In this document: positions 21,734-38,246 of the stretch, one piece after another
Position numbering within the stretch: the first letter of the stretch is position 1
Layout of the letters: each line of letters begins with the position of its first letter
Assembly (NCBI RefSeq): GCF_024054035.1
Contig: NZ_JAMXQU010000001.1
Span: 62,001-126,000 of the forward strand
DNA from: Asaia lannensis NBRC 102526
GTDB taxonomy: Bacteria > Pseudomonadota > Alphaproteobacteria > Acetobacterales > Acetobacteraceae
Direction of reading: 5' to 3'
Length of the DNA: 64,000 bases
Translations under genes and position numbers: made by a program
Notes under the pieces: generated by a model
Databases searched by the model: none
Told to the model about the DNA's origin: nothing
The model's input: only the letters and a program-made list of their open reading frames with translations

Positions 21734-22529
21734 GGTGATGTCACGTTAACTGACGGGGGTTAGCCAAAGCCCGTGGAAGGGATATTCAGATGCTGAGAGC
21801 GGTTACGCTGCTCCATTGAGCGAAGGCGCTGATCCGATGGATGTGGCGCGAAAGAGCGGTGGTGATGGAGGCAGGTGGAACAAAGAGATTGCGGATGGCT
21901 GAGAAGACGGACACGAAACGCTGGCATCCGCCTGGTGAACGGAAGTGCTGCATAATGCGTTCGCGTTTTCGCAAGGGAAGATGGTTGTTCTCTGCCCGGT
22001 TGTTCAGCCCCTTGTGCGAGAGGTGCCCTACGGAAAGACGCATTCTGCGTCTGGCTGCTCCATAGGATTTCAGCTTGTCGGTGATCAGGCGACCGGGGCG
22101 CACCCCCTGCTGTTTTAAAAGCCGGGTCAGTAGACGCCTTGCTGCCTTGGTGTTCCGACGGGTCTGCAGGATCTCGTCGAGAACATAACCGTCCTGATCG
22201 ACTGCCCGCCACAGCCAGTGAGGCTGGCCACGGATCACGATCCGCACTTCGTCCAGATGCCAAATATCATCCGGTCTTGCCGCCTTGCGTCGCAGGGAGC
22301 GAGCGTAAGCTGTGCCAAACTTCAGGCTCCAGCGACGGATCGTCTCATACGAAACCACGATCCCCCGCTCGAGCAGCATCTCCTCCACAAGACGAAAGCT
22401 CAGGGGAAAGCGGAAATAGAGCCACACCGCATGCGCTATCAGTCCACGCGGAAATCGATGCCGTTTGTAGCTCACACATAACGCTCTCATCGTCAGCGTC
22501 TAACACGCCGCACTTAACGTGACATCACC
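21734..22529 (-). mobile_element. IS6-family insertion sequence
   Basis: A 796-base element bounded by GGTGATGTCACGTTAA (21734-21749) and TTAACGTGACATCACC (22514-22529), perfect 16-base inverted repeats. It encodes one transposase. The flanks (CCCGTCTC and CCCCGGCG) are not an 8-base duplication, so the copy has taken part in a rearrangement. Confidence 0.9.
21786..22490 (-). CDS. IS6-family transposase
   Basis: DDE transposase of 234 residues. Catalytic residues lie in WHLDEVRI (first Asp), LITDKLKSYG (second Asp) and NRAENNHLPLRKRER (Glu). The N-terminal RHRFPRGLIAHAVWLYFRFPLS and YETIRRW segments are typical of IS6/IS26 proteins. No frameshift is seen, so it should be active. IS6 elements move by cointegration and often invert or delete neighbouring DNA, which fits the inverted IS630 pieces on either side. 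Confidence 0.92.
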   Translation of the reverse strand: MRALCVSYKRHRFPRGLIAHAVWLYFRFPLSFRLVEEMLLERGIVVSYETIRRWSLKFGTAYARSLRRKAARPDDIWHLDEVRIVIRGQPHWLWRAVDQDGYVLDEILQTRRNTKAARRLLTRLLKQQGVRPGRLITDKLKSYGAARRRMRLSVGHLSHKGLNNRAENNHLPLRKRERIMQHFRSPGGCQRFVSVFSAIRNLFVPPASITTALSRHIHRISAFAQWSSVTALSI

Positions 22530-22826
22530 CCCCGGCGACATCGTCGTCATGGACAATCTCGGCTCGCACAAGGGGCCGGGCGTGCAGGCGGCGATCGAGG
22601 CCGCCGGAGCCAGCCTGCGGTTCCTGCCGCCCTACAACCCGGACTTCAACCCGATCGAGATGGCGTTTTCCAAACTCAAGGCCCATCTCCGCCGCGCCGC
22701 CGAACGCACCCGAGACGGGCTTTGGAACAGGATCGGCAAACTCATCGATCAGGTCGCGCCCGCAGAATGCGCCAACTTCTTCACCGCCGCTGGATACGAG
22801 CCAGATTGAGAGGAAAACGCTCTAGA
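22530..22826 (+). pseudogene. IS630-family transposase, C-terminal half
   Basis: The remaining frame encodes the end of an IS630 DDE transposase: [11 protein letters not shown] with the second Asp, [12 protein letters not shown] with the Glu, and KLKAHLRR. Translation into it begins within the IS6 end, so the N-terminal half is lost. The element ends at GGAAAACGCTCTAGA, which touches the stop codon of the neighbouring LysR gene. Confidence 0.85.
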
Positions 22827-23724
22827 TGTTTCTAACGAGCAGGGTTAATCGCTCTCTCACCCATCGCTGCACCGGATGCGTCGTAGTTCGGTCATGCCAA
22901 AGCAACGCTAGTTCGAAACCTGGTACACTGATCGGCGGATTGAGAACCTGCAGCCGCCCTCTTTCCTCACGGACAATTCGCGCTGGCACGACTGCGATCA
23001 TATCAGAGTTCGCGACGATCCGGGGAACGATAAGGAAGCCCGGGGTGGAGAGCACAACACGTCGTGAGCGGCCCATAGCTTCGAGAACAGTATCGGTGGG
23101 TCCGGCGAAGCCCCCCCCGTCGGGTGATACGATGATGTGATCAAGACAGCAAAACAGGTCGAGATCGATAGTGCTCTTGATATGAGGGTGCCCGTTTCGC
23201 GCAATCAGAACATAGTCTTCACGACAAAACGCACGCATCCGCAACTGCCCTGGCTCCACTTGCGGCAGGTCTATGGCGAGATCAACCACTCCGCGCTCCA
23301 TCTGGCTGTGCAGCGCCGTGAGGTCGAGGTTGAGCCACGCAATACGAAGACCAGGCGCTTCGCGCCGTAAGATATGGACCAACGGCAGGAGCAGGGCGCT
23401 TTGCGTGTAATCGCTGGCTGCAACACGGATGGTGCCCTTCGCCCGGGATGGATCAAATGCAGTGTCTGTTGCCACGACTTGGCGGACGGCTTCGAGTGCC
23501 TCGTGTAAACGCGGCTGTAATTCCAGCGCTTTCTGTGTCGGCACCATCCCGCGTTGCTTCGGAATTAGCAGCGGATCGTCGAAGATGTCGCGTAAGCGTG
23601 ACAAGCGCGTCGACAGTGCAGGCTGGCTCATGTTCAATCGCCGAGCAGCACGGGTGACATTTCTCTCGGCCAGCAGCGTGTCGAGAGTAACAAGCAGATT
23701 AAAGTCGAGCCGGCTCGTATCCAT
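22822..23724 (-). CDS. LysR-family regulator, NodD-like
   Basis: Regulator of about 300 residues with an N-terminal winged helix (LDFNLLVTLDTLLAERNVTRAARRLNMSQPALSTRLSRLR) and a C-terminal effector domain. The frame is open to 23787, but ATG 23724 gives the normal start (MDTSRLDFNLL). The divergent gene is a quinone reductase, the usual arrangement for a LysR regulator and its target. The stop codon lies in the TCTAGA where the IS630 remnant ends, so the last residues may have been changed by the insertion. Confidence 0.88.
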   Translation of the reverse strand: MDTSRLDFNLLVTLDTLLAERNVTRAARRLNMSQPALSTRLSRLRDIFDDPLLIPKQRGMVPTQKALELQPRLHEALEAVRQVVATDTAFDPSRAKGTIRVAASDYTQSALLLPLVHILRREAPGLRIAWLNLDLTALHSQMERGVVDLAIDLPQVEPGQLRMRAFCREDYVLIARNGHPHIKSTIDLDLFCCLDHIIVSPDGGGFAGPTDTVLEAMGRSRRVVLSTPGFLIVPRIVANSDMIAVVPARIVREERGRLQVLNPPISVPGFELALLWHDRTTTHPVQRWVRERLTLLVRNI

Positions 23725-23836
23725 ACCGTGGATACCAGCACATAGAATATTTGATTTCAAGAATGACGAGCAGGCTCCTAACTTCAAGGCGAACGGTCGA
23801 AAGCCGCCTCTTCCACTTCTTGTTCAGGATCGCCGT

Positions 23837-24682
23837 ATGAGCAACGTTCTGATTGTCCATGCCCATTCCGAAGCCCAGTCACTCACCAGTTCCTTGAAGA
23901 ACCTTGCGGTTGAGACACTGACCGCGCAGGGCCATCAGGTAGAGGTTTCGGACCTGTATGCCATGCACTGGAAGGCTGTCGCCGACGCAGCTGATTTCCC
24001 AACGCGTAAGAACGCCGACAGGCTGCATTATGCATCTGAATCGGGTAACGCCTTTGCAACGGGCACGCAGCCCGCTGACGTCGTGGCCGAGCAACAGAAG
24101 CTACTGTGGGCGGATGCGGTTATTCTCACCTTCCCGCTGTGGTGGTACAGCACGCCGGCGATCCTAAAAGGCTGGGTCGAGCGCGTCTATGCGCTTGGCT
24201 TCGCCTACGGTGTCGGTGAGCACGGTGGAGAGCGCTGGGGTGACCGCTTCGGCGAAGGGACGCTCGCCGGGCGGCGGGCGATGGTTGTCGTCAACATTGG
24301 GGGTCGCGAGCCGCACTATAGTGAACGCGGCGTGAATGGCCGTCTGGATGAGATCCTGTGGCCCATTCAGCATGGGCAGCTCTTTTATCCGGGTATGGCG
24401 GTCATGGAGCCCTTCCCGGTTTATCAAAGTGACCGCATGTCGAAAGAGCGTTGGCTCGAAGTCGCCGCCGCCTTCAAGGTCCGGATGGAAAATCTCTTCA
24501 CCGACACGCCGATCCCGTATCGCACTCAAAATGGCGGCCACTACGACGGCCAGCAAGTGCTCAAGCCCGGTCTTGGTGGTGATGAGACAGGTGTGCGGAT
24601 CCATCTGGTGCAGCCTGGCGATCCCAATGAGGATCTCGGTGCGTCCCGAACGGATACTGCCGAAGTAGCCAGCTACATTTGA
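23837..24682 (+). CDS. NAD(P)H-dependent quinone reductase, flavodoxin-like
   Basis: Protein of 281 residues of the NQO1/MdaB type. The flavin-binding start MSNVLIVHAHSEAQSLTSSL and FPLWWYSTPAILKGWVERV are typical. Such enzymes reduce quinones or related compounds by two electrons, avoiding radicals. The frame is open far upstream, but ATG 23837 gives the family start. It is divergent from the LysR gene with 112 bases between, so induction by a quinone-like effector is likely. The C-terminal 50 residues are an extension without a match I know. Confidence 0.85.
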   Translation: MSNVLIVHAHSEAQSLTSSLKNLAVETLTAQGHQVEVSDLYAMHWKAVADAADFPTRKNADRLHYASESGNAFATGTQPADVVAEQQKLLWADAVILTFPLWWYSTPAILKGWVERVYALGFAYGVGEHGGERWGDRFGEGTLAGRRAMVVVNIGGREPHYSERGVNGRLDEILWPIQHGQLFYPGMAVMEPFPVYQSDRMSKERWLEVAAAFKVRMENLFTDTPIPYRTQNGGHYDGQQVLKPGLGGDETGVRIHLVQPGDPNEDLGASRTDTAEVASYI

Positions 24683-26054
24683 GCTCAACGCAAGTAAGCG
24701 CGTCGTCTCATGGCGCGGACAGTTGGAAAAAAGATCTACCAGTAGTCGAGTGTGACTGTACCCCATTCTGCGCATCGGAGGTCTCCATATCCATCGCGGA
24801 ATATGGAGATCAACCAGATGGACTAGGTGTGGCGCTGGGATATTGCCTGTATCTCGACGCAAAAGGGACCTCTTTGCCTAATGGCGATCATAACTAGGCA
24901 ACCCGCAAGGTGGTGTACCGGCGGTTTTCGCACACAATGGCTGACGAATTTCGCATTGAGACGCACTGGAAGTCTCTGATCCGCTACGACGCACCGAAGA
25001 TCTTCGATACGGACTCGGGCTCACAATTTACGACACCTCGGTTCAGAAACGTGCATCAGCGAAAACGAGAGCAACCGCAGGCCGGAGGAACGCCTGATGA
25101 GAAGGGTCATGATACGTCAGCAGCAACGAAACGGGCCATACGACCGTATCCATAGATCGCATAGCAGGACCACAATACTGTCCGAACGGATGGGTTGACC
25201 TCATACTGCAATAGTCGAGTGCTGTATGTGGCGGACGTACGTGACCGTGAAGGGATGCGGATGTCACGCGTGAGTAGGACCAACCAATCATTCGAAGCGA
25301 AGACAACAACCAATGCTGCGCCGTTCAATACTCGTTTGAACAGCCGTCGTGGTTTGTCGGCCCGTAGCGTTTTTTGGCGTGCCGGGGGCTTCGCCTTGCA
25401 ACCTGCTGGTTGACCGGAGACGGCTTAATAAATGGCTGACTAGCACATCTCCGGCCAAAATGCCTGCTTCCATCCAGAGCTATGAACATGCTGATCAGGC
25501 GAACGTAATCTGATCCGCCTCTGCATGAAGTTCCTGCCAGACGGATCAGACGGATATCAAGCTCTCCCTGGTGATAATCGTTGCATTGGAGAGATTTGAG
25601 ATCGTAACTTTGGCCTTGTTTTTGACAACGTCCAAGGATGCCTGATTGAGGGGAGCCTGCGTCCTCGACCATGAGGCCGTGTCAAACCTTCGTTCGTCAC
25701 GAAGGAGCGGGATAAATCTCCCGCGAGACAGTTGTTTTGATCGGACGCAAGCGTTTCCTAGCCGCGCAGCATGCCTGTAGCCCGCTCGCCATGCAAGAAC
25801 GTTCGAGTATCCTTCCTACCAGGCCAATACTTTCATAATCAAAATCAGCTTATGAAGCGAACCAACAAATAAGTCGTTGACTCAAACATAGGATGAATTG
25901 CAAGAATGGGCGTCGCCGACGGCTCCATCCGTTCAGATCTGATTTGCGTCACTCTAGTCAGAGCCCTGGGAATGAGGGCTCAGTTCACCACCCGCCCATT
26001 GCAGTGAACGCGAAGAACACCGTCGGACGCACCGATATCAAAAGACTGTTTTCC
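24683..26054. other. 1.4 kb with only a transposase fossil
   Basis: Around 24,990-25,045 the plus strand encodes APKIFDTDSGSQFTTPRF, the DDE core of an IS3-type transposase (usually IFNTDQGSQFTS), with no intact frame on either side. The rest shows short random frames only. CATAGGATGAATTG at 25887-25900 recurs near 33,484. Confidence 0.55.
25887..25900 (+). repeat. 14-base repeat, left copy
   Basis: CATAGGATGAATTG here and at 33484-33497 are identical and in the same orientation. The two copies bracket the acyltransferase/kinase genes together with the GntR and LysR regulators. Confidence 0.6.
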
Positions 26055-26070
26055 GAAGAGGTTAGTGCCA

Positions 26071-28521
26071 ATGAGCAGCAGTCCGAAAAATGAAGCCCGT
26101 GAAACTACTATTAAAGGCCAGTCAGTTGAGCAGACGCCTGCGCCTGGCCTTAACGCGATGCGGCCAGTCGGTTTCTTTCCCGGACTAGGCAGCCGCGCGG
26201 CGTATCGCGAACTCGAACGTGATTTGTTCGAGTGTGGCGTGCCTGTTGTTCGACAAGTCTTCTCGGAAGCAGGGGCAGCTTTGGGCTGTGATCCCGAGTG
26301 CCTCGTCTTGCGGGATTCGAATATTCCTGATGATCGGATAGAGCGACAGGCATTCCTGGGAGCCGCGCTGCTGGCTCACGGGATCGCCTTGCACCGCTAT
26401 CTCGTCGATGTCTTGCAACGAAACGGGACGGACATTCATTTTGTGTCGTTCACCGGCGAAAGCTTCGGCATCATCACTGCGGCTGTCGCCGCGGGCGCCT
26501 TGTCATTAGCCGACGGCGCAAAACTTGCCCATGCGCTGGCCCCGTTCATCCTCGTCGGCGCCGAAGGCGTGTCATCGCCGTCAGCCCTGCAGGTGCGTGT
26601 CGCCGAAATGCTGGCCGCTGTTGGCGTCACACAACCTCTTGTGCTCCAGCCCGCTCATGTCGTGGCGCTGACGGGTCATCCGGACACCTTGAATCGCGTC
26701 TTGGTGGCAATCGGTGATGTCTATGACGTGTCCGACGTGGAGCTGCACAAGACATACGCCGCGAATCAAGCGAATATCTATGTCCGGACGGGTGCAAGGG
26801 AAAGCTTTGGGCTCTTCATGCGCAACTTTGCGGACGTCGCGGTGACAGAGTTGAAAGAGCCGACGTGCTTCATGGCCCATGCTGCCCGCATGGCGCCGGT
26901 CCGGGAAGCATTCGCTCGGATGATGGACAGCGAAGGCATCCGGTTCCAGAATGCACATACGCCGCTGATCTGCAATCATGCCAATCGTATCGTCCATAAG
27001 GCTGCGGACGTGCGCGATGCCGTTTTATCCATCATCGACTCCGTTATGGAATCGCGCTGGACCGCCAACAATTGCGAGCATGTCGGCGGCAATATCGTGC
27101 TGGAACTTGGCCAAGGCGGCAAATCGGTGCAGCTTCTGGTAGACAATGGTCTCACTCTGCCGGCGATCGCCTATGCTGGCGGACAGGAGAATACAGACGC
27201 CCTCGTGGCGGCCGCAACGCTGCTGCAGCAGATTGACTGCGTTACAGCGCGAGATACCGCTGGGAGGGCACATCTCCAAGACGGTGATTTGGCCGTGTTG
27301 AGGCGAATGTTTGGCGTGCCGGCACGCTATCCGGTGGTTCGGGAATTCATGCTCCGGGAATTCACACGTATGGTTGCTACCTTTCAAGTGACTGCCCCGA
27401 GTTCTTTATCACCCTCTCTACGACGGTTTCTGGAGATCTACCAGCACACCTCCGCCGCGCGCGACGATCTCGACCTCGCGGGAGGAGAACTTGCGCTTCA
27501 GGTACAGGCGAAGAAAAGTGTCGTGGGTGATAGCCATACGCTGGGGCGGGTGACTACAGAAATCAAAGTCCTCAAGCCGGACGGTTCGGTGACGGCCCGG
27601 TGTTCTGCTGGTCGCTGGACGCCGGAAGCACTGGTCTTTTATTTCAGCCGTTTGGACGACGCTCCAGTGCTTGACTTGATCCGCAGTGCCAGACGCATGG
27701 CTGAACATCATGATGAGGTCGCAGCACTCTATGAGAAGTTCACGTCCGCGCTGTCGTTTGACATCACCGCAGCGGGGCCGGGTCAGGCCGCGGTGATGTC
27801 CCCGCAGGCAGTTGCGACGTTTCAGATCCTCCATCAGCTTGCACTGTTGATCCTGTTGCGGGCGGAACGTCCGGCGATTTTCCTTTCACACGACTATTAT
27901 TTCGCGAGCGGCGACGTATTAGGATGGTGCGTAGCGCTCTGCGCTGCGGATGCGCTGGATCCCAAAGACGCCGTAACGCTGTATTCCGATTACCTGCGTG
28001 GTGCTATCCAGGTGGACACAACGTTCAATACCGGACACAATGACGTTCTAAGGCGGCTTCGGGAAGCTTCGGCCCCCCTTGTCTCGGCGGCTGGCGTACC
28101 GATGACGGCGGCCAAGGATATTGCGTCCGCTACGCGGGGCCTGTTTGAACTTCCCCTTGCTAAACAACGGCGCTGTTCGCTTCGTCTCAACGGCGATGTC
28201 CAGATTGTTTGCCTGGGCGCGGATCCCGGCGAGGGGATATTCGACACGGCACCCTATGGCAGCGCGGTAACCGTCGTATCTACAGCGGAGCAGATAGCTC
28301 AACGCAGCCATAACGCGTCCCTCGAAGCTTTGGAACATGGCTGTGTTTCGTCCCTCACCAGCGACAACCAGCGTGTTCTGCATTTCGCGCGCGGCCGGAA
28401 GATTCTTAGCAGTACAGTTTTTTCCTACGTCAAACTGGGCGAGCGCGTCCTGGGTTTTGGGAAGGGCGGTAGTGAATCCATGACCATGTTCGTCACCGCG
28501 GAGGACCACCATGCAGCATGA
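26071..28521 (+). CDS. Tandem acyltransferase-like protein
   Basis: Protein of 816 residues. Residues 30 to about 330 follow the malonyl-CoA:ACP transacylase fold: GFFPGLGSRAAY at the start, FTGESFG with the nucleophile Ser131 (usually GHSxG), AAGALSLADGAKLA, and a FMAHAARMAPVREAF segment where the family has its catalytic His. From about residue 590 a second, weaker copy appears (ATFQILHQLALLILLR, then SGDVLGWCVALCAADALDPKDAV), in which the GHSxG serine is not recognisable. The middle (about 400-540) is unassigned. GAAGAGG at 26055 supports ATG 26071. It overlaps the next gene by 11 bases. It may load an acyl group onto an unknown carrier. Confidence 0.65.
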   Translation: MSSSPKNEARETTIKGQSVEQTPAPGLNAMRPVGFFPGLGSRAAYRELERDLFECGVPVVRQVFSEAGAALGCDPECLVLRDSNIPDDRIERQAFLGAALLAHGIALHRYLVDVLQRNGTDIHFVSFTGESFGIITAAVAAGALSLADGAKLAHALAPFILVGAEGVSSPSALQVRVAEMLAAVGVTQPLVLQPAHVVALTGHPDTLNRVLVAIGDVYDVSDVELHKTYAANQANIYVRTGARESFGLFMRNFADVAVTELKEPTCFMAHAARMAPVREAFARMMDSEGIRFQNAHTPLICNHANRIVHKAADVRDAVLSIIDSVMESRWTANNCEHVGGNIVLELGQGGKSVQLLVDNGLTLPAIAYAGGQENTDALVAAATLLQQIDCVTARDTAGRAHLQDGDLAVLRRMFGVPARYPVVREFMLREFTRMVATFQVTAPSSLSPSLRRFLEIYQHTSAARDDLDLAGGELALQVQAKKSVVGDSHTLGRVTTEIKVLKPDGSVTARCSAGRWTPEALVFYFSRLDDAPVLDLIRSARRMAEHHDEVAALYEKFTSALSFDITAAGPGQAAVMSPQAVATFQILHQLALLILLRAERPAIFLSHDYYFASGDVLGWCVALCAADALDPKDAVTLYSDYLRGAIQVDTTFNTGHNDVLRRLREASAPLVSAAGVPMTAAKDIASATRGLFELPLAKQRRCSLRLNGDVQIVCLGADPGEGIFDTAPYGSAVTVVSTAEQIAQRSHNASLEALEHGCVSSLTSDNQRVLHFARGRKILSSTVFSYVKLGERVLGFGKGGSESMTMFVTAEDHHAA

Positions 28522-29890
28522 GAATGTCATCGTTCGAAAGATCCTGAGCGAAGCCCTAATAGCAGTCGGCTGGAATCCGGAGGGGACCGGCGTCATGCTG
28601 CCACCCTTCACCAAGGCCAAGCGGCAGGCTGAATTCCTGCAGGCCCTGCCGGACCCGGCACGGCGCTACTTTCCGCACGTATTTGATATCCTTGAGCGCG
28701 AGATTCAGGTGCCGACCCACTATCTAAAGGAAACGGACCGGCTCACATTCAAGGAACTAATCTATGAGATGAGCTTCGTTCCGGGGGAGGAGGTCAGCCG
28801 CTATGTCGAGCGTTGCAGCCCGCCGCCTGCGATCATAGCCCGCATCTACGAGCAGATCGCTCTCGTGCTGCGCAATGACGTGCACAGCCTGCGGCGTGTA
28901 AGGTCTCCTGGCAATACCCTGGAGACCTCCTATTTCCGTAAGATCGAAGACCGCCTTGATCTATGCCGCAGCACAGCGCCAAACACTTTCAACGAAAAGC
29001 TGTTGGATACGAGCCACATTATTATCAACGGGGTACGCTACCGAAACTTCCGGACAATCCTGAGCATCCTGCGAGGAAACGCGGCCTATTGCGACATGCT
29101 CGAGCCACACTTCCATGCCCTCGTCATGGGTGACACCAATACTGAAAATATCAAGATCAATGACGTAGCACCTTTGGTCCGTGCTCAAGCGCTGATTGAG
29201 GCAAGCGCACCGGCGGCAGATATCGAGGCCGCGCTAGACGCGATTACGGCAGCCTCGATCGATTTGCGGTTCCTCGATCCGCGGGCGATCGGTTTCAACA
29301 GCGAAGGCGCTGAGACGCGCGACGACCCAATGTACGACAACAAGCCTTGGCACAATTCGCTCGGTCACTATGACGAAGTGCATCACGAGCGCTTCGATCT
29401 TTCAGTCTCGGTCGGGGAGGGACGCTCACCAGAGGTCGAAATCCGGTATGAACCGGGTAATCCGTATGAGCGCTCCTATAGGGTCGAGGATCTGACCGAG
29501 CGCAACATTGATGTCGACGAACGTCCTGATGTTACGGGGATGGAGCGCTACTTCGCGCCAGTGATGCGCAAACTCTATGACCTCGACAATCCCCAGTCCG
29601 CCGCTGTTGCCGAGGATCCGCATTGGCTGGTCCGGTTCGTTTTCATGATGGGCGCTCATTTCACCGCCATGCCGCCATTCCATTTCCAGATGGAACTCGA
29701 CGGCAGCCTGATCGACTCGTATCTCGTGCAGCGGCGCCCGGTCGCTATCTTCTGCGAGGGAGTCCGCTGGTTAAACTGGGCACTCGAAATGCTCGAGGGT
29801 AAGCGCAGGAGGTTCCTAGGCATCCCCGTGCCCGATTACGGAGGAGCGTCTCTATCCGAACCGGCGTCAGCAGACATGATGGAAGCGTAA
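28511..29890 (+). CDS. Kinase-like protein of aminoglycoside-phosphotransferase fold
   Basis: Protein of 459 residues. The segment HALVMGDTNTENIKI matches the catalytic loop of the APH/choline-kinase superfamily (usually HGDxxxxN): Asp208 and Asn213 are in place, with Met in the position of His. LRFLDPRAIG (Asp256) fits the metal-binding DFG-equivalent. The N-terminal part has the helical features of the family but no clear glycine loop. About 150 extra C-terminal residues follow. It overlaps the acyltransferase gene, so the two are probably made together. The substrate is unknown. Confidence 0.65.
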   Translation: MQHENVIVRKILSEALIAVGWNPEGTGVMLPPFTKAKRQAEFLQALPDPARRYFPHVFDILEREIQVPTHYLKETDRLTFKELIYEMSFVPGEEVSRYVERCSPPPAIIARIYEQIALVLRNDVHSLRRVRSPGNTLETSYFRKIEDRLDLCRSTAPNTFNEKLLDTSHIIINGVRYRNFRTILSILRGNAAYCDMLEPHFHALVMGDTNTENIKINDVAPLVRAQALIEASAPAADIEAALDAITAASIDLRFLDPRAIGFNSEGAETRDDPMYDNKPWHNSLGHYDEVHHERFDLSVSVGEGRSPEVEIRYEPGNPYERSYRVEDLTERNIDVDERPDVTGMERYFAPVMRKLYDLDNPQSAAVAEDPHWLVRFVFMMGAHFTAMPPFHFQMELDGSLIDSYLVQRRPVAIFCEGVRWLNWALEMLEGKRRRFLGIPVPDYGGASLSEPASADMMEA

Positions 29891-29974
29891 CTAACGAATT
29901 GACGGCTCTCCTGAGACCAAGTTCTCGGGCGGACATAGTCGCCGGCCGCTGAGGCACCTCGAAGGAAAAATATT

Positions 29975-31483
29975 ATGGTCACAACGCCCAATTCCGCATT
30001 GTCGCGCTTCGGTATGGCGGCTCTGGCTCCCGAATCTCGTGTTATTTGCACGCCCTGGAGCAGGATGGTACGCGGGCTCTCCCTCGGTCAGTATCCCGTC
30101 GATTATAATGAGCATCTCGGATCCCTCGTTCATCAGGCGCGTGATATCCTGCTTCGCAAAATTCCCGCCCCTAAAGGCTATCTACGTTTCGCGCTACTCT
30201 TGGCAGATTTTGCAGTTGAGGTATCTAATCCGGACGTCGTAGTAAGTAACGACCGCCTAATAACGACCACATGCAAACTCACGGATGCGCTACGGTCAGA
30301 GAAAAATCCGTATTACGCTGTCGTCGGCGCTGGTATACTATTTGACGCTTTTGCCAAACTGCATCTCGACATCGCCTTGCTGGTCAATGCCGAGTACGAT
30401 TTCGCCGAAGAGATGCTGGCAATGGTCGATCGCATCCAACCAGACCAGATCAGGGACGAGAATGCCGGCAACCACGGTGAATACGAGAAGTTGTTCGCCT
30501 ACACGTCGCTCTTTCTGGGGATGGGGCAGGCGGGACTGCAAGAGAAACTGACTGCGGGCCGCCGCAATCGTGTCCGGGAGGCGCTAAGCCTGATCCAAAC
30601 CGTTCCTTCCCCCTTTTTCAGGGGGCGTGGATGCTCGATGCTGTTTTCGGTGCTGTCAGCGGTCGGACTGGACGGGATGATTTTCGACGACGGTTATGAT
30701 TTCATGAGGGACGTGCTAGAATACGTCGATCAAGATGACGAGATTAACTTTCCGCTGCGCTTTCCACAGCCGATCTCGCCGGCCTACGTCAAGATCTACC
30801 CGCGTGTAACGATGCTGAACGCGATCGCGGTTTCGGGGCGTACATCCTACGTGACGATGGGGCACGATCGGCTGGCCGAACTGAGGCCGCTATGGGCTGA
30901 GCTAGAACCAGCGGAGAAGATGCACCAGGGATTGTATTACCTCATCGCCTTGCATAACCTTGGCAAGATTTCAGAGGAAATCGGCGCGGAGAGAGTGATT
31001 GTCGACGATCTGGTTCGTTTTCTCGATATTGTAGATCCCGGTGCCAACTTTTTCCTCAACGGCTTGTCACATGCCTATATCGTGGAGACCGCGATGGTCA
31101 CGGGCCAACTCGATGCGATCTCCGATCGGGCGATCAATCGCATCGCCGATTGCTTCGCGCACATGGACGCGACCCCGCTCGACCGCCTTAGCCGGGCCTA
31201 TCCGTTTGCCTATAATCTTAACGCCTTGGGCGAGGTGGGCGAGGCAGAAAAGCTGTTCGAGCCACGAGCAACATATGGCGGTGTCTCTGCGTTCTCCTGG
31301 CTTGTCGACCAGTTCTCATCGGAGGGTCACGCTGAAGGCAGTCGGATACTGATGCTCGGGAATGCTCTGATCGGGTTGGGACTGCGCTTACGTGGTGCAG
31401 AGAACGACACCACACCAATGTTTGATCATCTCGCCAAGCGATTGGGATGGCAAAGATCGGATGCTCGGGTCTCAACGATGTGA
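29975..31483 (+). CDS. 502-residue helical protein of unknown function
   Basis: I do not recognise this protein. It has no signal peptide or clear membrane span. It is rich in helices (LLADFAVEVS, FAEEMLAMVDRI, VREALSLIQTV) with repeated Leu/Ala patterns such as an alpha-alpha barrel would show. Acidic clusters FDDGYDF and VDQDDE lie near residues 230-255. It sits 84 bases after the kinase gene, on the same strand, and is the third member of the cluster. A terpene-cyclase-like or glycosidase-like barrel is possible, but only as a guess. Confidence 0.55.
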   Translation: MVTTPNSALSRFGMAALAPESRVICTPWSRMVRGLSLGQYPVDYNEHLGSLVHQARDILLRKIPAPKGYLRFALLLADFAVEVSNPDVVVSNDRLITTTCKLTDALRSEKNPYYAVVGAGILFDAFAKLHLDIALLVNAEYDFAEEMLAMVDRIQPDQIRDENAGNHGEYEKLFAYTSLFLGMGQAGLQEKLTAGRRNRVREALSLIQTVPSPFFRGRGCSMLFSVLSAVGLDGMIFDDGYDFMRDVLEYVDQDDEINFPLRFPQPISPAYVKIYPRVTMLNAIAVSGRTSYVTMGHDRLAELRPLWAELEPAEKMHQGLYYLIALHNLGKISEEIGAERVIVDDLVRFLDIVDPGANFFLNGLSHAYIVETAMVTGQLDAISDRAINRIADCFAHMDATPLDRLSRAYPFAYNLNALGEVGEAEKLFEPRATYGGVSAFSWLVDQFSSEGHAEGSRILMLGNALIGLGLRLRGAENDTTPMFDHLAKRLGWQRSDARVSTM

Positions 31484-31713
31484 CTCACATCACCCTCGAT
31501 CTGTCGCCGCAGATCCCATAATTTTGCAGATAGCCACGACTGCCAGAATTCAATCTCAGAACAAAGTCTTGTTGCACTGGGAGCTTCAGACGCAGCGAGC
31601 GCTTGCGCGCCTCTGTCGAAAATCGTCTGCGTCTGGCAGAGAGGGCGAATGATTGTCAATTTTATGGACTAATACCTTCGGCGGACAATGTCCGACCAAA
31701 GATTGGAAAGATA

Positions 31714-32487
31714 ATGTCTGAGGTTTTTCTCGCACCGCATATGCCTATCCTCACCTCGACCCGACGTCAGTCTCTCGTGGACTCTGCCCTTGACGCCTTG
31801 AATCAACGTATAGCCTCAGGAGTATGGCAGCTCGGTGAGAGAATTCCCACGGAGGGAGAGCTCAGCGAACTACTACAGGTTGGGCGCAATACAGTGCGCG
31901 AAGCTATTCGAGTGCTGTCTCACGCAGGCATTCTTGAAGTCAGGCAGGGGGACGGTACCTATGTGCGTTCCCAAGATGACCCCGCTGCGATGATGCGAAC
32001 GCTACGTCGGTCTAGCCTGCGTGAGCATTTTGAATTGCGGGCTATGTTAGAAGTGGAGGCGGCCAGACTCGCGGCCCTACGACGCACAACAACTGACCTG
32101 AAACGGATCAAGTCACGACTCGATGCCCGAGGGTACTGGGTTGAAGGCCAGAGTGTTGACATGTTTCTTGAGCGAGATTCGGCCTTTCACTGTGCAATTG
32201 CAGAGACCAGCCGAAATCGAGCCCTGATTGAGCTCTATCGGTATTTCCTTGGCACCGCCCGTGATGCTGCGCGCGCGGCGATGGTCGAACACGGCGTTAC
32301 AGAGCCAAGTTTATCGCTTCACGACGACCTTTACCACGCGATCAAAGCTGGTGATCCCATCCAGGCAGCACACGCCGCACTTGCAATCCTTCATCCGCTG
32401 ATAGATGCCTTCAGTCTTGACCATAGAGTTCCAGACATACCTATATCCGAGCGCAACATTTCTGGGATATCTAAGCAGGGGCGTTAA
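31714..32487 (+). CDS. GntR-family regulator, FadR subfamily
   Basis: Regulator of 257 residues. The N-terminal winged helix reads ALDALNQRIASGVWQLGERIPTEGELSELL then GRNTVREAIRVLSHAGILEVRQGDGTYV. The C-terminal all-helical FCD domain (FELRAMLEVEAARLAALR, ERDSAFHCAIAETSRN, SLSLHDDLYHAIKAGD) binds a small effector, often a carboxylate, with a metal. GGAAAG before ATG 31714 sets the start. It follows the helical protein by 230 bases and is the nearest candidate to control the cluster. Confidence 0.9.
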   Translation: MSEVFLAPHMPILTSTRRQSLVDSALDALNQRIASGVWQLGERIPTEGELSELLQVGRNTVREAIRVLSHAGILEVRQGDGTYVRSQDDPAAMMRTLRRSSLREHFELRAMLEVEAARLAALRRTTTDLKRIKSRLDARGYWVEGQSVDMFLERDSAFHCAIAETSRNRALIELYRYFLGTARDAARAAMVEHGVTEPSLSLHDDLYHAIKAGDPIQAAHAALAILHPLIDAFSLDHRVPDIPISERNISGISKQGR

Positions 32488-32513
32488 ACCAGCGCCACTC
32501 GCGTGTTTATTAC

Positions 32514-33455
32514 CTAGACTGTTGACCCTCTCGCAACGTGACTTCGACACATGACCTGCATCACAGTGCGTCGCAGCCACTGATGAATCAGGTCGTTCTC
32601 GTGCCGAGGGTGCCAAGCTTGAAAAATAGTTACGGGATCAAGCTCGATCGGCAATGGAAAAGCGAAAAGTCCCAAACGATCGAGTCGTGAGGCGTCGATG
32701 ACGATATCGGGTACTGAGAGAACGAGATCGGTCTGCGATAGACCTTGAAGCGCAGCATAGAAAGAAGTGAGTAAAAGAGCGACGTTGCGTGTCAAGCCAT
32801 ATTGATCCGAGAGTATCTCGTCGATCGGTCCCCGTCGTCGCCCCCGGCGTGAGACGGCAATGTGATCGTAAGTCACCAGGGTCTGAGGTGTGATGTCGCC
32901 CAGCAGAAGGGGATGGCCAGCCCGTACTACGCCGCGAAATCGGGTCTCGAACAAATTCCGCCGCATGATCTCAGGCCGCAGGAACGCTGTGGCTCCAATA
33001 TAGAGATCTATCCCTTCCTGACGCAAAAAATCGCTATCGTCGCTGCTGGACTCTGCTGTGAAAATCAATGTGGTGGCGGGACAATCGACGCGCAACGCAC
33101 GAAGCAGCGCCTCGGCATATGGACCGATCACCACGTCAGCGGCCCGGATACGGAAAATCGGCGCCAAGCCCGTGAAATCTAGTTCACGGCGCGGGTGATA
33201 GAGGTCACCGATAGCAGCGAGGATCTGATTGAGTCGCGGCTGCATCTGCAGGGCGCGTGGTGTCGGCACCATATGACGACCTGACTGCACCAGAATGGCA
33301 TCTCGAAATGTCTCGCGCAGACGCGACAACGTGCGGCTCATGGTTGCGGCACTCACCTGTAATCTCGCGGCTGCCCCAGTGACGCTCGCTTCTTCGACTA
33401 AAGCGTTCATCGCCTTCAGGAGATTGAGGTCGTAGCCGCTTGTTATGTTCCCCAT
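32514..33455 (-). CDS. LysR-family regulator
   Basis: Regulator of 313 residues with the N-terminal helix-turn-helix (YDLNLLKAMNALVEEASVTGAAARLQVSAATMSRTLSRLR) and an effector domain of the NodD/PcpR branch. It is divergent from the EmrB-type transporter at 33,682 across 226 bases, so it probably controls that efflux pump. CATAGGATGAATTG lies 29 bases upstream of its start codon. Confidence 0.9.
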   Translation of the reverse strand: MGNITSGYDLNLLKAMNALVEEASVTGAAARLQVSAATMSRTLSRLRETFRDAILVQSGRHMVPTPRALQMQPRLNQILAAIGDLYHPRRELDFTGLAPIFRIRAADVVIGPYAEALLRALRVDCPATTLIFTAESSSDDSDFLRQEGIDLYIGATAFLRPEIMRRNLFETRFRGVVRAGHPLLLGDITPQTLVTYDHIAVSRRGRRRGPIDEILSDQYGLTRNVALLLTSFYAALQGLSQTDLVLSVPDIVIDASRLDRLGLFAFPLPIELDPVTIFQAWHPRHENDLIHQWLRRTVMQVMCRSHVARGSTV

Positions 33456-33483
33456 CGAATATTCCCCTGCTTAAAGATCCGAT

Positions 33484-33497
33484 CATAGGATGAATTG
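33484..33497 (+). repeat. 14-base repeat, right copy
   Basis: CATAGGATGAATTG, identical to the copy at 25887-25900. It lies in the LysR/efflux intergenic region, so it could be an operator as well as a boundary repeat. Confidence 0.6.
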
Positions 33498-33681
33498 TGT
33501 TGTATCTTTGTTGCGTTGTTTCCGGACAAGCTGGCAGACACTTCGCCCTGTCGCAATCGATATCTGACACTGCCCAATTCCATATTTGCTCTCAGACGAT
33601 TGCATAATTGAGTGTTCACAAAGATGGGATGTTTCTTCAAATTGGAAAGCATTCTTCAATGATCCCGCGGCGAGGTGTCCC

Positions 33682-35340
33682 ATGGACCACGCAGATAGTA
33701 TGACATGGTCCCTAGCCGGCGGCGCCACGGAATTGACCCGCATACCGATCCGTCCCGAAGCACCCCCTAAGGCGCCGGTGTTCGGTCTGCGCCTGGCCAC
33801 GGGGTTGGCGGGTGTGTTGCTGGCAGTCCTGTTGGCGGGCTTCAACGAGCACACGACCGAGGCGGGGCTTGCCGATATAAGGGGCGCGTTCCATCTGGGG
33901 CACGACGAGGGAACCTGGTTCACGGCCCTGTTCGAGGCCTTCAACATCGCCGCGATGGCGTTTGCGCCATGGTGCTCGGTGACGTTCTCCATCCGCCGCT
34001 TGACGATCGCGATGACGGGACTAGTCGGCGCGCTTGGTATGATCGCCCCTTTCATGCCCAACCTGACATCGCTTTTGCTGCTGCGCTGCGTGCAGGGGAT
34101 GGCATGCGGCTGTCTGCCGCCAATGCTGATGACAGTTGCGCTGCGCTTCCTGCCGCCCAACATCAAGATCTACGGCCTGGGTGCCTATGCCCTAACCGCG
34201 ACCTTCGGGCCGAACCTGGGCGGCGCGCCGCTGGCGGGATTCTGGTTCGAGTATGTCGGCTGGCCGTTCCTGTTCTGGCAGATCGTGCCGCTATGTCTCG
34301 TTTCCATGATATGCGTGGCATGGGGCCTCCCGCAGGACCCGATCCGGCTGGAGCGTTTCCGTCAGTTCGACTGGCGTGGCCTTCTCACCGGCTTGCCTTC
34401 AATCTGCATGCTGGTGATTGCGCTGGAACAGGGGGACCGGCTGGATTGGTTTCGCTCGCCGTTGATCACTCATCTGTTCTTTGGCGGCGGATTTCTTTTC
34501 GTTCTCTTCATCGTCAATGAATGGTTCCATCCGGTACCATTTTTCCGAATCCAATTGCTCAAGCAGCGCAACGTGACAGATGCGTTGCTGACATTAGCGG
34601 CGGTTCTGGTGTTGGGCGCGGTCACAGCGGAAATTCCTGCAGTCTATCTGGAAGAGGTGCGCGGCTATCGCCCGATCCAGATCGCGCCGGTCATGCTGAT
34701 CCTGGCGGTACCGCAGGTGCTGGCGCTGCCGCTGGTCTCGGCCTTGTGCAATATCCGCCGGGTAGATTGCCGTCATGTGCTGATGACGGGCCTTGCGATC
34801 CAAGGGCTGTCTTATTTCCTGGGCACCTGGATCGATGCCGACTGGGTCCGCGAGAACTTCTACGCCATGCAGTTCCTGCAGGTGGCCAGTGAGCCCATGA
34901 TGGTCATCGCAATCCTGATGCTGGCAACGATGGGGTTGGGCCCGGCCGACGGGCCGTTCATCTCCGGCATGTTCAACATGACCAAAGGAGTGGCCAACGC
35001 GATTGCGGCGGCCGTCATTTCCGCGTTGCTGCGCCGGCGTGAGCAATTCCATTCCACCATGCTGCTCGACACATATGGCACCAACCATAACGGTTTGCAG
35101 CCCTGGGGCGACCCTGCGCATGCGCTTCTGGCGCCGCATATCGCAGATCCAGCCCGACTTGACTGGAACATGATCGTCCTGCTGCACGGCGAGGTATCGG
35201 AGCAGGCGCTCATTCTCGCCTGTGCAGACATCTACACGATCATGATCGGCGTCTGCGCGGTCTTGCTCGTCCTCAATCTGGTTCTGCCGCAACGGGTCTA
35301 TCCACCCCGCGCGCTCTCCACCACCGCTCCCGCTCGCTGA
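33682..35340 (+). CDS. MFS efflux transporter, DHA2 (EmrB) type
   Basis: Inner-membrane drug/proton antiporter of 552 residues with about 14 hydrophobic segments. TGLAGVLLAVLLAGFNEHTTEAGLADIRGAF is the DHA2 first-helix region, and RCVQGMACGCLPPMLMTVA and GPNLGGAPLAGFWFEYVGWPFLFW fit motifs of this family. ATG 33682 was chosen over the upstream frame start because it follows a GAGG and gives the usual N-terminus. It works with the membrane-fusion and outer-membrane genes that follow. Confidence 0.9.
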   Translation: MDHADSMTWSLAGGATELTRIPIRPEAPPKAPVFGLRLATGLAGVLLAVLLAGFNEHTTEAGLADIRGAFHLGHDEGTWFTALFEAFNIAAMAFAPWCSVTFSIRRLTIAMTGLVGALGMIAPFMPNLTSLLLLRCVQGMACGCLPPMLMTVALRFLPPNIKIYGLGAYALTATFGPNLGGAPLAGFWFEYVGWPFLFWQIVPLCLVSMICVAWGLPQDPIRLERFRQFDWRGLLTGLPSICMLVIALEQGDRLDWFRSPLITHLFFGGGFLFVLFIVNEWFHPVPFFRIQLLKQRNVTDALLTLAAVLVLGAVTAEIPAVYLEEVRGYRPIQIAPVMLILAVPQVLALPLVSALCNIRRVDCRHVLMTGLAIQGLSYFLGTWIDADWVRENFYAMQFLQVASEPMMVIAILMLATMGLGPADGPFISGMFNMTKGVANAIAAAVISALLRRREQFHSTMLLDTYGTNHNGLQPWGDPAHALLAPHIADPARLDWNMIVLLHGEVSEQALILACADIYTIMIGVCAVLLVLNLVLPQRVYPPRALSTTAPAR

Positions 35341-35593
35341 CGGCGGCGGGCAGTATGTCATGTGAGACTAATATGAAGACCAGTTCGTATCGGAATGCTC
35401 GCCGACTGCGGCATCGAGACATCCTATCATCGGATTATACGAGCTGCTCGATAGCTCCGAGGTGGACGCTGCGTGACCGGATCGAGGGCTACTTCGTGGC
35501 CCTCGTCGTGACGATCTACCTGAAGCTGACCTGACGGTCCCGCGCAATCCGCGACAGACAATGCGGCCAGCGGGGCCGCCAGAGGGAGTATTC

Positions 35594-36670
35594 ATGAACG
35601 CAACAACGAAGGTCTTGCTGCTAGTGGCCGGCGTCGTGGTGCTAGGAGCGGCGGCCTGGGGCGGCGATCGGCTCGTGCTCGGCGATGGTGTCAACGTCGA
35701 GACGAATGACGCCTACGTGTCGGCCTATTCCTCCGTCGTCGCTCCCAAGGTCGGCGGGCGCGTCGATGCCGTGATGGCGCAGGACAACGAGCGCGTCCGC
35801 AAGGGGGAGGTGCTGGCCCATATAGAGGATGACGACTACCGTGCGGCACTCAAGGTGGCGCAGGGCAACGTTGCCGCCGCGCGGGCGGACATCGTCAACC
35901 TGCAGGCGGAATTTTTGCGGCAGGACGCGCTGATCTCCGCCGCGCGCGCTGCGGTACAGTCCGACGACGCCTCACTTACTTTCGCCCAGCAGGACGAGGC
36001 GCGCTACCGCACGCTGGCCGCAGGCGGCGCCGGCTCGATCGAGCAGCGCCAGCATACGGTCGCACAGACCCGCCAGGCCATGGCCGCCAAAGCACGCGAC
36101 GAGGCCGCCGTACTGGCCGCAATACAGGAAAAGGACGTGCTCACAGCCCAGATCGAGCGCGCCAAAGGGAATTTGATCCGCGCCGAGGGCGAGCAGCAGC
36201 GGGCGGCGCTGGACCTGTCTTATTGTACCATCCCGGCCCCGGTGGACGGCGTGGTCGGCGCTCGCGGCGTGCGCGTGGGCAATTACGTCAATCCCGGCAG
36301 CGCGCTGATGGCTGTCACCCCGGTCCAGGACGCCTTTGTGGTCGCCCATTTCCAGGAGACGCAACTCACGCATGTCGTGCCGGGGCAGAAAGCGACGGTC
36401 TGGGTCGATACATTCCCAGGTCAGCCTCTCCATGCCCATGTCGACAGCATCCCGCCGGCGACCGGCGTGGCCTTCGCGCCTATCCAGCCAGACAACGCCA
36501 CCGGCAACTTCACAAAGGTGGTCCAGCGCCTCCCGGTGCGCATCGTCCTCGATCCCGGCCAGACTCTGGCGGCGCGGGTCAGGATCGGGATGTCGGTCGA
36601 AGTCCGGATCGACACGGCATCGCATCCCGAGGGCGTAAGGGCGAACGATCCCCGCTATTTGTGGCGGTGA
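35594..36670 (+). CDS. HlyD/EmrA-family membrane fusion protein
   Basis: Periplasmic adaptor of 358 residues anchored by one N-terminal helix (VLLLVAGVVVLGAAAWGG). The biotinyl-lipoyl-like halves read TNDAYVSAYSSVVAPKVGGRVDAV and DLSYCTIPAPVDGVVGARGVRVGNYV, with an alpha-hairpin between them. It bridges the DHA2 pump and the outer-membrane channel. GAGGGAG before ATG 35594 sets the start. The 250 bases upstream hold no gene. Confidence 0.92.
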   Translation: MNATTKVLLLVAGVVVLGAAAWGGDRLVLGDGVNVETNDAYVSAYSSVVAPKVGGRVDAVMAQDNERVRKGEVLAHIEDDDYRAALKVAQGNVAAARADIVNLQAEFLRQDALISAARAAVQSDDASLTFAQQDEARYRTLAAGGAGSIEQRQHTVAQTRQAMAAKARDEAAVLAAIQEKDVLTAQIERAKGNLIRAEGEQQRAALDLSYCTIPAPVDGVVGARGVRVGNYVNPGSALMAVTPVQDAFVVAHFQETQLTHVVPGQKATVWVDTFPGQPLHAHVDSIPPATGVAFAPIQPDNATGNFTKVVQRLPVRIVLDPGQTLAARVRIGMSVEVRIDTASHPEGVRANDPRYLWR

Positions 36671-36680
36671 GGAACGGATC

Positions 36681-38246
36681 ATGACCATAGGCTTTAGCCA
36701 ACGCACGCTCTCCCTGGCGAGCATGCTCCTAATCGGCGCCTGCACCGTTGGGCCCGACTATAACAAGCCCGATATCGCAAGCGGGCCGCACTGGCATCGC
36801 AGCATGACCGATGCTGAAAGCCGACCCGAGGAAAGTCCCGCCGATCCGCAATGGTGGACGATCTATCGCGATCCGGTGCTGACCGCACTGGAACAACAGG
36901 TCGCGTCCGCCAACCTGGATCTGCGGGCAAGCGCCTATCGCCTTGCAGAAAGCATCGCAGAGCGGCGGATCGCAAGTGCGGCACAGTTCCCGCATATGGA
37001 GGGGAATGCCTCCTATGCCCGCGAGCGGGCTAGTACCAACGGTATCCTCGGCTTGCTCGGCACGCTGGAACGCGCGGGCGCGGGTGATGTCGCCAGCGGC
37101 GCGCAGGGCTTCGGTCCCGTGGCCATGCCGGGCACAGTCGGCAATCCTTCCTTCAACTTACCCCAATACGGCATGAGTGCGTCCTGGGAAGTCGATCTCT
37201 GGGGTCATGTCCGACGCCAGGTCGAGGCCGCAACTGCGGCGGTCCAGGCGACGCAGGACATGCAGCGCGACGTGTTGGTCTCGCTTATGGCCGAGACCGC
37301 GCAGGACTATCTCGATCTGCGCGGCGTGCAGGCGCAGATCGCAATCGTCGAGCGCAATATCGACACCGCGCGCCATAGTGTCGATTTGACGACGATGCGC
37401 TTCACGCAAGGCGCCTCCACGCAACTCGACGTGGCGGATTCCCGTGGTCAGCTCAGCGGATTCCAGTCGCGCCTGCCGATCTTGCGCGCACAGGAAGTGC
37501 ATCTGATCAACGCGCTGAGTTTTCTGGTAGCACGTGAGCCGGGAGCGCTCCGAACACAGCTCGGCACGCCGGCACCGATACCGCCGGTACCCGATACGGT
37601 GCCCGTCGGTCTGCCGTCACGACTGGCGGAGCGTCGGCCCGACATTCGCATGGCAGAAGAACAGTTGCATGTTGCCACCGCCAGCATTGGCGTGGCTGTA
37701 GCGGATTTCTTTCCGCGCATCACCCTCTCCGGCAGTCTGGACGTGCAGGCGCTGCAGTTCAGCGGGCTCGGCTCCTGGGCCTCGCGGCAATATGGTTTCG
37801 GCCCGACCATGACGCTGCCGCTGTTCGAAGGCGGCCGCCTGACGGGGCAGTTGCGCCTGCGCCGTGCGCAGCAGAGGGAAGCGGCGATAACCCTTCAGCG
37901 CACCATCCTCAAGGCATGGCAGGAAATCGACGATGCCATGGCTGACTTCTCGGCCGCCCAGCAGCAGCGTGACCGCCTGAGGGAGACCGTGGCCCAGAAC
38001 GAGATGGCCGTGCGCCTCGCCCAGTTGCAATATGTGCATGGGGCGTCAGACTTTCTGAATGTGCTGACACTACAGAACGCGCTTTTGACAAGCCAGAGCC
38101 AGCTTGTGCAATCGACAACGACGGTTTCGGTTTCTGTGGCACGTCTCTACCGCGCACTTGGTGGAGGCTGGGAACCACGATATCCTGTCGCTACGACGCA
38201 GCAGGCGGTTCTGAAATCAGCCAGCGATAAAAGGCGGGAGGGATGA
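36681..38246 (+). CDS. Outer-membrane efflux lipoprotein, NodT/OprM type
   Basis: Channel protein of 521 residues. The lipobox LIGAC follows a short signal sequence, then VGPDYNKPDI, the standard opening of NodT-type channels. Two OEP repeats with the long helices DLRASAYRLAESIAERRIASA and GVAVADFFPRITLSGSLDVQAL complete it. It is the third gene of the efflux operon, 10 bases after the adaptor, and overlaps the next gene by four bases. Confidence 0.92.
   Translation: MTIGFSQRTLSLASMLLIGACTVGPDYNKPDIASGPHWHRSMTDAESRPEESPADPQWWTIYRDPVLTALEQQVASANLDLRASAYRLAESIAERRIASAAQFPHMEGNASYARERASTNGILGLLGTLERAGAGDVASGAQGFGPVAMPGTVGNPSFNLPQYGMSASWEVDLWGHVRRQVEAATAAVQATQDMQRDVLVSLMAETAQDYLDLRGVQAQIAIVERNIDTARHSVDLTTMRFTQGASTQLDVADSRGQLSGFQSRLPILRAQEVHLINALSFLVAREPGALRTQLGTPAPIPPVPDTVPVGLPSRLAERRPDIRMAEEQLHVATASIGVAVADFFPRITLSGSLDVQALQFSGLGSWASRQYGFGPTMTLPLFEGGRLTGQLRLRRAQQREAAITLQRTILKAWQEIDDAMADFSAAQQQRDRLRETVAQNEMAVRLAQLQYVHGASDFLNVLTLQNALLTSQSQLVQSTTTVSVSVARLYRALGGGWEPRYPVATTQQAVLKSASDKRREG

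Follow-up and report, generated by a model that had tools for sequence, protein, structure and literature searches.

A rare gene cassette, with an acyltransferase- and kinase-like enzyme apparently split in acetic acid bacteria, that may acylate, phosphorylate and export a small molecule

We analyzed a three-gene set in a stretch of 64,000 nucleotides from Asaia lannensis NBRC 102526 (contig C1, positions 62001 to 126000 of a 3.22 Mb genome; hereafter the window). We found that the first two genes correspond to a single protein in other bacteria, and we read the core of the set as one multidomain enzyme (an acyltransferase domain, a degenerate acyltransferase-like domain and a kinase-like domain) with a helical-repeat partner, usually near an exporter. 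Tentatively, we propose a self-contained cassette whose enzyme would acylate and phosphorylate a small molecule and whose exporter would carry the product out, a reading that we consider quite possible, if short of probable. The features of the core are as follows.

26071 to 28521, plus strand: protein 1, 816 residues from the ATG at 26071 (818 from a GTG at 26065), read as an acyltransferase domain followed by an unassigned stretch (residues 395-560), a degenerate acyltransferase-like domain and a glycine-rich hairpin.
26170 to 27255, plus strand: FabD-like acyltransferase domain of protein 1 (residues ~34-395), with GESFG, His270 in AHAARM and Asn302.
27748 to 28275, plus strand: probable degenerate second acyltransferase-like domain of protein 1 (residues ~560-735), placed by hhalign to FabD and inspection of alignment columns.
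28438 to 28494, plus strand: glycine-rich hairpin FGKGGSESMTMFV at the C-terminus of protein 1, read as kinase strands 1 and 2.
28500 to 28504, plus strand: GGAGG, found in the sequence 6 bases 5' of the ATG at 28511 and within the end of gene 1.
28511 to 29890, plus strand: protein 2, kinase-like, 459 residues, with K10 (VIVRK), the hinge YEMSFVPGEE, GDTNTEN and FLDPR (254-258).
29975 to 31483, plus strand: protein 3, a putative helical-repeat protein of 502 residues, by AlphaFold2 and profile self-comparison.

An initial annotation made from the letters alone had described this set, and its coordinates and lengths are borne out by the list of open reading frames (ORFs), as are the overlap of 11 bases between genes 1 and 2 (28511-28521, with the stop of gene 1, TGA, at 28519-28521) and the gap of 84 bases before gene 3 (29891-29974). 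Genes 1 and 2, which it took as encoding two proteins, look more like parts of one enzyme. In plasmids of Streptomyces sp. NBC_00388 and NBC_00503 (loci L007 and L008) the annotation joins the two into one protein, 1240 and 1257 residues long, and in plasmid pRW1 of Acinetobacter larvae BRTC-1 (L009) an open frame runs from inside the acyltransferase domain into the kinase, the front of the acyltransferase gene lying in pieces in other frames. This fusion in both Streptomyces plasmids and the open frame through the join in Acinetobacter are our grounds for speaking of one multidomain enzyme and a partner. The split falls at one point, since window positions 26152-28509 match residues 29-799 of the fused L007 protein and positions 28520-29833 match residues 798-1233. 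That point is directly after FGKGGSESMTMFV and directly before VIVRKIL, which by their motifs we take to be the glycine-rich hairpin and the ATP-binding lysine strand of a kinase N-lobe. The hairpin is continuous with the kinase-like domain in the two Streptomyces proteins and in the open frame of Acinetobacter, and the GGAGG and the stop/restart arrangement are identical in Gluconacetobacter sacchari (L004), Asaia krungthepensis NRIC 0535 (L005) and Nguyenibacter vanlangensis (L006). The plain reading is that acetic acid bacteria would assemble a split kinase from two polypeptides. A kinase hairpin encoded at the end of another gene would amount to a testable gene fission inside a catalytic domain. 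We also considered a programmed frameshift at the junction and think it unlikely, because gene 2 starts at an ATG with a GGAGG of its own 6 bases ahead, and we recognised no slippery site for the +1 or -2 change that would be needed.

The set was found at seven loci: in the two Asaia, G. sacchari, N. vanlangensis, the two Streptomyces plasmids and the A. larvae plasmid. Its three parts keep together in identical order at all seven, which answers a question that the initial annotation had raised (L006, on a contig of 4.6 kb, is cut at both ends, truncating the acyltransferase domain and the helical gene, and the acyltransferase front of L009 is in frame pieces). All three genes are under purifying selection in acetic acid bacteria, with ratios of nonsynonymous to synonymous substitution rates (dN/dS) of 0.06-0.17 over nine comparisons (the window against L004, L005 and L006 for each gene). 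The ratio is 0.06-0.07 for protein 2 and higher for the helical protein (0.11-0.14) and protein 1 (0.11-0.17). Given these ratios and the homologues in other genera and another phylum, the three ORFs are not chance frames. That the genes belong to separate pathways and are adjacent by chance, an outcome for which nothing speaks beyond the lack of a known function, is contradicted by the Streptomyces fusion, the continuous Acinetobacter frame and the repeated co-location in one order, and we regard it as most improbable.

The gene set is rare. Of 72,556 plasmid records searched with each of the proteins in turn, only three gave a match, and the kinase and the helical protein as queries both led to these same plasmids, as did protein 1. 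The kinase had a match in 2 of 60 relatives and, in wider samples, in 2 of 299 genomes of the family and 1 of 397 of the phylum; for the helical profile it was 1 of 385 genomes sampled from the class. These counts include the window's own genome each time, stem from overlapping draws and were not aimed at Streptomyces or Acinetobacter. The contig scan of genomes looked solely for exact peptide patterns taken from the window protein, so that more diverged copies would escape it. Within the window genome there is one match to each of the three proteins. Neither phage records searched with the L007 kinase part (E<=0.01) nor viral contigs searched with the kinase alignment held relatives.

The acyltransferase fold first suggested for protein 1 is supported by profile matches. 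Against the FabD/malonyl-CoA:acyl carrier protein transacylase (MCAT) model TIGR00128 the protein gives E 8.4e-11 and 41.9 bits, MCAT chains of the PDB match the protein 1 family profile down to E 1.8e-09, and residues 34-395 align with 30 FabD sequences in hhalign at a probability of 98.0 and E 1.5e-13. Since 41.9 bits is far below the curated cut-off of 260.9, we do not file protein 1 as FabD. Like FabD and the acyltransferases of polyketide synthases (PKS) over this stretch, it keeps the serine nucleophile of GxSxG (GESFG at 129-133, as originally spotted), the catalytic histidine (His270 in AHAARM, aligned with PSHCALM of FabD) and Asn302, in a register taken from PDB MCAT alignments and our own alignment. 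The set differs from them in the degenerate acyltransferase-like and kinase-like domains that follow, in the absence of a carrier domain from the window, and at the malonyl-binding arginine (Arg117 in E. coli FabD), which is leucine in three acetic acid bacteria and phenylalanine in two Streptomyces (the L006 and L009 rows are without this region). The MCAT-type nucleophile elbow of the earlier reading stands; replacement of the arginine makes a malonyl transacylase unlikely, and a non-carboxylated acyl group is the more likely substrate, as we infer from this loss. Pfam returned nothing on protein 1 besides a sub-threshold match to 'Phosphatase' PF15698 (17 bits against 28.4, residues 195-286), which we took as chance because it is located inside the acyltransferase domain.

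The arginine is the residue that holds the carboxylate of malonyl, and in trans-acyltransferase systems an enzyme that lacks it is thereby diagnosed as an acyl hydrolase, the position then usually being taken by Gln or His (PMC11775670). This bears on an alternative in which the set would be an accessory editing or loading enzyme for a carrier elsewhere, the acyltransferase domain acting as an acyl hydrolase-like proofreader on host acyl-ACP (acyl carrier protein) and the kinase modifying the released acid or the carrier. The domain is FabD-like without the arginine, as are the trans-acyltransferase hydrolases PedC and PksD, and the genome holds carrier domains on other contigs. However, the position is Leu or Phe instead of the usual residues, the annotation around L007-L009 shows no synthase (the plasmid gene tables are incomplete, and L004-L006 were not searched), and the PP-binding domain (PF00550) has no match in the window, in agreement with the initial annotation, with seven matches genome-wide of which the sole one on contig C1 lies at 427124-427318. 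We consider this alternative quite unlikely. The PF00550 domains on other contigs occur, among others, in frames of 2120 and 2903 residues; positions 2377-15894 of contig C13 hold three matches, two of them within the 2903-residue open frame, a region that by its size looks like a nonribosomal peptide synthetase (NRPS) or PKS.

A degenerate, dead acyltransferase-like domain probably follows the first, with moderate support. In hhalign, residues ~540-740 score 31.6 against FabD, where the best of 40 column shuffles gave 20.9 and stretches elsewhere in the three proteins score 14-17, and the region scores 33.0 against the first acyltransferase domain in a collinear stretch. PDB profile matches also fall here, namely 3im8 (whole-sequence E 6.3e-05, best stretch 615-657) and, weakly, 2qc3 and 2qj3 (E 0.85 and 0.95, 558-661). 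None of the seven sequences has a serine in the nucleophile column, which is occupied by V, L, A or F. Two blocks stand ~55 residues apart, compared with ~170 in the first domain, so that the small subdomain with the catalytic histidine would be missing. Several results weigh against a second domain: a longer stretch (400-760) scores only 27.0 at a probability of 4.2%; residues 650-740 alone score 13.6 to FabD and 16.8 to the first domain, at shuffle level, in the expected register; and the HH-suite probabilities of the two better matches are just 22.7% (FabD) and 28.7% (first domain). The AlphaFold2 model of residues 385-816 from four close rows was uninformative (predicted local distance difference test, pLDDT, 37.3; predicted template modelling score, pTM, 0.33). 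The description of protein 1 as tandem acyltransferase-like therefore holds insofar as a FabD-like second region exceeds all 40 shuffles; it does not hold for two active sites.

Protein 2 is likely a kinase. K10, D208, N213 and D256 are invariant in the seven sequences, and we take these to be the lysine, the catalytic aspartate and the Mg-binding asparagine and aspartate of aminoglycoside phosphotransferase (APH)-fold kinases, in a motif order that matches that of APH-like kinases. With the APH/choline-kinase-like phosphotransferases (PF01636) it would share the succession of hairpin, lysine, hinge, GDxxxxN loop (GDTNTEN at 207-213, as had been noted) and later aspartate; unlike them, it has no Pfam match and, in acetic acid bacteria, its hairpin lies in the other gene. 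Against 16 APH proteins of related genomes hhalign gives a score of 23.4 and a probability of 1.4%, with the hinge and catalytic loop in register. This similarity is at a level reached by 1 of 40 shuffles, which counts against the assignment together with three other results: protein 2 has no Pfam family at E<=1 (and at E<=10 none of its counterparts in L007, L008 and L009 matched APH in Pfam), the PDB profile search with the kinase alignment gave no match up to E 10, and NCBIfam gave only two matches, both sub-threshold (E 0.028 and E 0.13; the second model is named diacylglycerol kinase, and the score is 11.4 bits where 302 is the cut-off). The APH-fold kinase first proposed thus keeps its motif order and invariant residues, with weak profile support and neither a Pfam nor a PDB match. 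To our eye, the DPR motif and the MYDNKPWHNSLGHYDE stretch are reminiscent of capsule-type phosphotransferases. Conservation within the set is highest in the kinase-like protein, which is 59% identical to its Streptomyces and 53% to its Acinetobacter counterpart; the corresponding values are 45% and 32% for the helical protein, and protein 1 is 37% identical to Streptomyces. The high conservation of the kinase-like protein suggests that its substrate would be the same everywhere.

The AlphaFold2 model of protein 3 (pLDDT 62.5, pTM 0.61) consists of helices, with no strand reaching three residues, in line with the first description of a helical protein. Comparison of its profile with itself gave off-diagonal matches up to 41.4 at offsets near 100 and 50 residues, and its first half scores 18.3 against its second, within the range of six shuffles. 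We read it as a helical-repeat protein, either a toroid or a solenoid; Foldseek searches of the model against the PDB and BFVD gave no match at E<=0.001 (best E 0.025 in the PDB, tetratricopeptide repeat proteins being among the weak matches). A PDB profile search with the helical alignment gave no match up to E 10, and none of the curated families searched covers protein 2 or protein 3. Polar motifs that do not vary, TPWSR and HGxYEK among them, point to a site for binding or catalysis.

A kinase with a helical-repeat partner and an exporter resembles the logic of class III-V lanthipeptide synthetases. The set could accordingly modify a peptide or protein, its kinase phosphorylating Ser/Thr of the peptide, its helical protein serving as a LanC-type toroid, to which the repeats of protein 3 would be suited, and its acyltransferase acylating the product. 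Yet neither a LANC, a lyase nor a lanthipeptide-kinase model appears among the Pfam or NCBIfam matches, the lanthipeptide systems differ from the set in that an acyltransferase is present here, and inspection by eye of upstream ORFs (5 of the 7 loci and L009) found no small precursor-like ORF common to acetic acid bacteria, Streptomyces and Acinetobacter, other places not having been searched. We therefore think this reading improbable.

The genes that follow the set in the window are these.

31603 to 32487, plus strand: GntR/FCD regulator (FadR-type) of 294 residues, with GntR and FCD domains by Pfam.
33586 to 38246, plus strand: DHA2/EmrB-like major facilitator superfamily (MFS) transporter, EmrA-like adaptor and outer membrane efflux protein, with NCBIfam matches below the curated cut-offs.

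At 5 of the 7 loci an exporter of drug type lies near the set, though not of one related type throughout. In Streptomyces and Acinetobacter the exporter, of Cmx/AraJ type, is directly upstream; in Asaia it is the DHA2/EmrB-like transporter two genes away, whose trio with the adaptor and outer membrane protein, behind the GntR and LysR genes, forms a possible export pump. The two MFS types share 24-26% identity over short stretches. Between the two Streptomyces plasmids the response regulator, ArsR, MFS, acyltransferase-kinase and helical genes are 80-87% identical, whereas ScbA, ScbR and a short-chain dehydrogenase/reductase (SDR) are 40-56% identical, otherwise arranged and ~16 and ~5 kb from the set; this difference indicates that the cassette is a unit of its own. 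When 18 genes of the L007 neighbourhood were queried against the A. larvae plasmid, only the MFS, acyltransferase-kinase and helical genes matched, and the A. larvae MFS, of the same type as that of Streptomyces, is present as four frame pieces directly upstream (55-69% identity).

Three points here weigh against the exporting cassette that we propose. The Acinetobacter copy may not work, as its acyltransferase and MFS frames are broken in the record; the Nguyenibacter contig is too short for an exporter to show; and the upstream MFS of G. sacchari sits beyond a transposase and may be unrelated. The broken region of L009 (1-2400) holds the acyltransferase front and the MFS in several frames, with the kinase and helical frames open, which could reflect decay or sequencing indels. 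The GntR gene next to the set, correctly recognised as FadR-type in the initial annotation, is seen beside the Asaia copies only and so is not counted in the core: it is missing from the L004 ORF list and not annotated in L007-L009, and ORFs read by eye in the 7 kb downstream of the G. sacchari set include neither a GntR nor an Asaia-type pump.

The same surroundings feed the main rival explanation, a detoxification or resistance cassette in which O-acylation, O-phosphorylation and the exporter would inactivate and expel a foreign compound, the helical protein binding the compound or scaffolding the enzyme. The set lies on plasmids and on a block present in just one of eight congeners, regulators (ArsR, GntR, LysR) are nearby, and the Streptomyces exporter is closest to the Cmx/CmrA chloramphenicol pumps (341.1 and 333 bits; cut-off 400). 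A fused acyltransferase-kinase with a constant partner of 500 residues is, though, more elaborate than the inactivating enzymes known to us. Butyrolactone signalling genes, more usual beside production genes, stand ~16 and ~5 kb away in the Streptomyces plasmids, a weak point because ScbA, ScbR and the SDR are less alike than the cassette. On balance, we consider detoxification somewhat unlikely.

In the acylating and phosphorylating cassette that we propose, the product would be a small exported molecule made from precursors common to most cells. On its serine, the acyltransferase domain would receive an acyl group that is not carboxylated, supplied by acyl-CoA (or host acyl-ACP), and would then transfer this group to a small acceptor at a hydroxyl or amine. 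The kinase, if active as such, would phosphorylate the same molecule, giving the end product or turning a hydroxyl into a leaving group; the helical partner might bind, hold or cyclise the intermediate, and the exporter would remove the product. The kinase activity, all substrates, the order of steps and the role of the helical protein are inferred. The core has no synthase, so the acceptor must come from elsewhere, which weighs against this proposal, as do the missing Pfam and PDB matches of protein 2 and the missing fold match of protein 3. AntB of antimycin biosynthesis offers a precedent for the first step, being a stand-alone acyltransferase that uses acyl-CoA to acylate the hydroxyl of a small molecule (PMC3869250). 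The likeness is one of action only. AntB acts after an NRPS/PKS, and it is not known to be fused to a kinase. Of the acylated, phosphorylated metabolite put forward originally, the co-occurrence of the parts and the carrier-free window are upheld, and the product itself is conjectural.

In its boldest form our proposal would make the set a compact carrier-free natural-product synthase: the fused acyltransferase, dead acyltransferase and kinase would build, with the helical partner, an acylated, phospho-activated and perhaps cyclised signal or antibiotic from primary metabolites, and would move between phyla as a two- or three-gene cassette with its exporter, the kinase of acetic acid bacteria working only with the hairpin of the neighbouring polypeptide. 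We hold this to be unlikely as a whole. If the set does make a metabolite, the pathway would be very small, a multidomain enzyme and its single partner, shared by hosts from two phyla and with no carrier protein of its own close by. Tools that search for synthases could then overlook it. Its parts are of known kinds, whereas the combination is not known to us and is not covered by the curated families searched. As the initial annotation had supposed, no description of such a system was found in the open-access literature, which is weak evidence of absence since most subscription papers lie outside that scope. PADLOC matched nothing for the three proteins.

The block that carries the set in Asaia was probably acquired. 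Window positions 22,822-26,000 and 31,600-36,074 match at 96-97% in G004 only among eight congeners, efflux homologues in six of the other seven are merely 64-69% identical (G006 having only a 132-base match), the kinase is absent from all seven, and a transposase marks the left edge of the common block.

21786 to 22490, minus strand: IS240-type DDE transposase (PF13610).

Similar transposase sequence is present at several places in the congeners. G004 carries the kinase near the end of its contig C37, and the L005 set is close to the end of contig 37. By its record, A. larvae was isolated from a moth larva; its plasmid measures 12 kb. As Asaia and G. sacchari are also insect-associated, the product could act in insect-associated communities.

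Upstream of the set, at window positions 25876-25945 (~130-200 bases 5' of the acyltransferase start), the stretch TTGACTCAAACAT and the bases that follow are kept between the Asaia copies and G. sacchari and are a possible promoter or leader. Promoter and terminator scans gave 5 and 7 hits, no excess over shuffle means of 5.6 and 7.5, and Rfam at gathering scores had no match in window positions 20000-42000. In G. sacchari, four co-oriented genes upstream of the transposase (L004, 3937-7696) encode an AroB-like sugar-phosphate cyclase (195.8 bits, cut-off 305), an SDR, an MFS-like protein called by eye without an NCBIfam match and a haloacid dehalogenase (HAD) phosphatase, perhaps a small cyclitol cluster. 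We dropped a link between these genes and the set, a transposase lying between them and SDR similarity (28-40%) being the only likeness among the L007, L008 and window genes compared. Elsewhere in the window, a 223-residue protein behind the outer membrane efflux gene (38243-38914, plus strand) has no Pfam or NCBIfam match, and a Hint_2-domain protein (42924-44780, plus strand) neighbours a 473-residue protein (41036-42457) with no Pfam match at E<=0.0001. A resolvase-type recombinase (PF00239) is encoded at 16797-17540 on the plus strand, in a region that is 90-91% identical in 4 of the 8 congeners.

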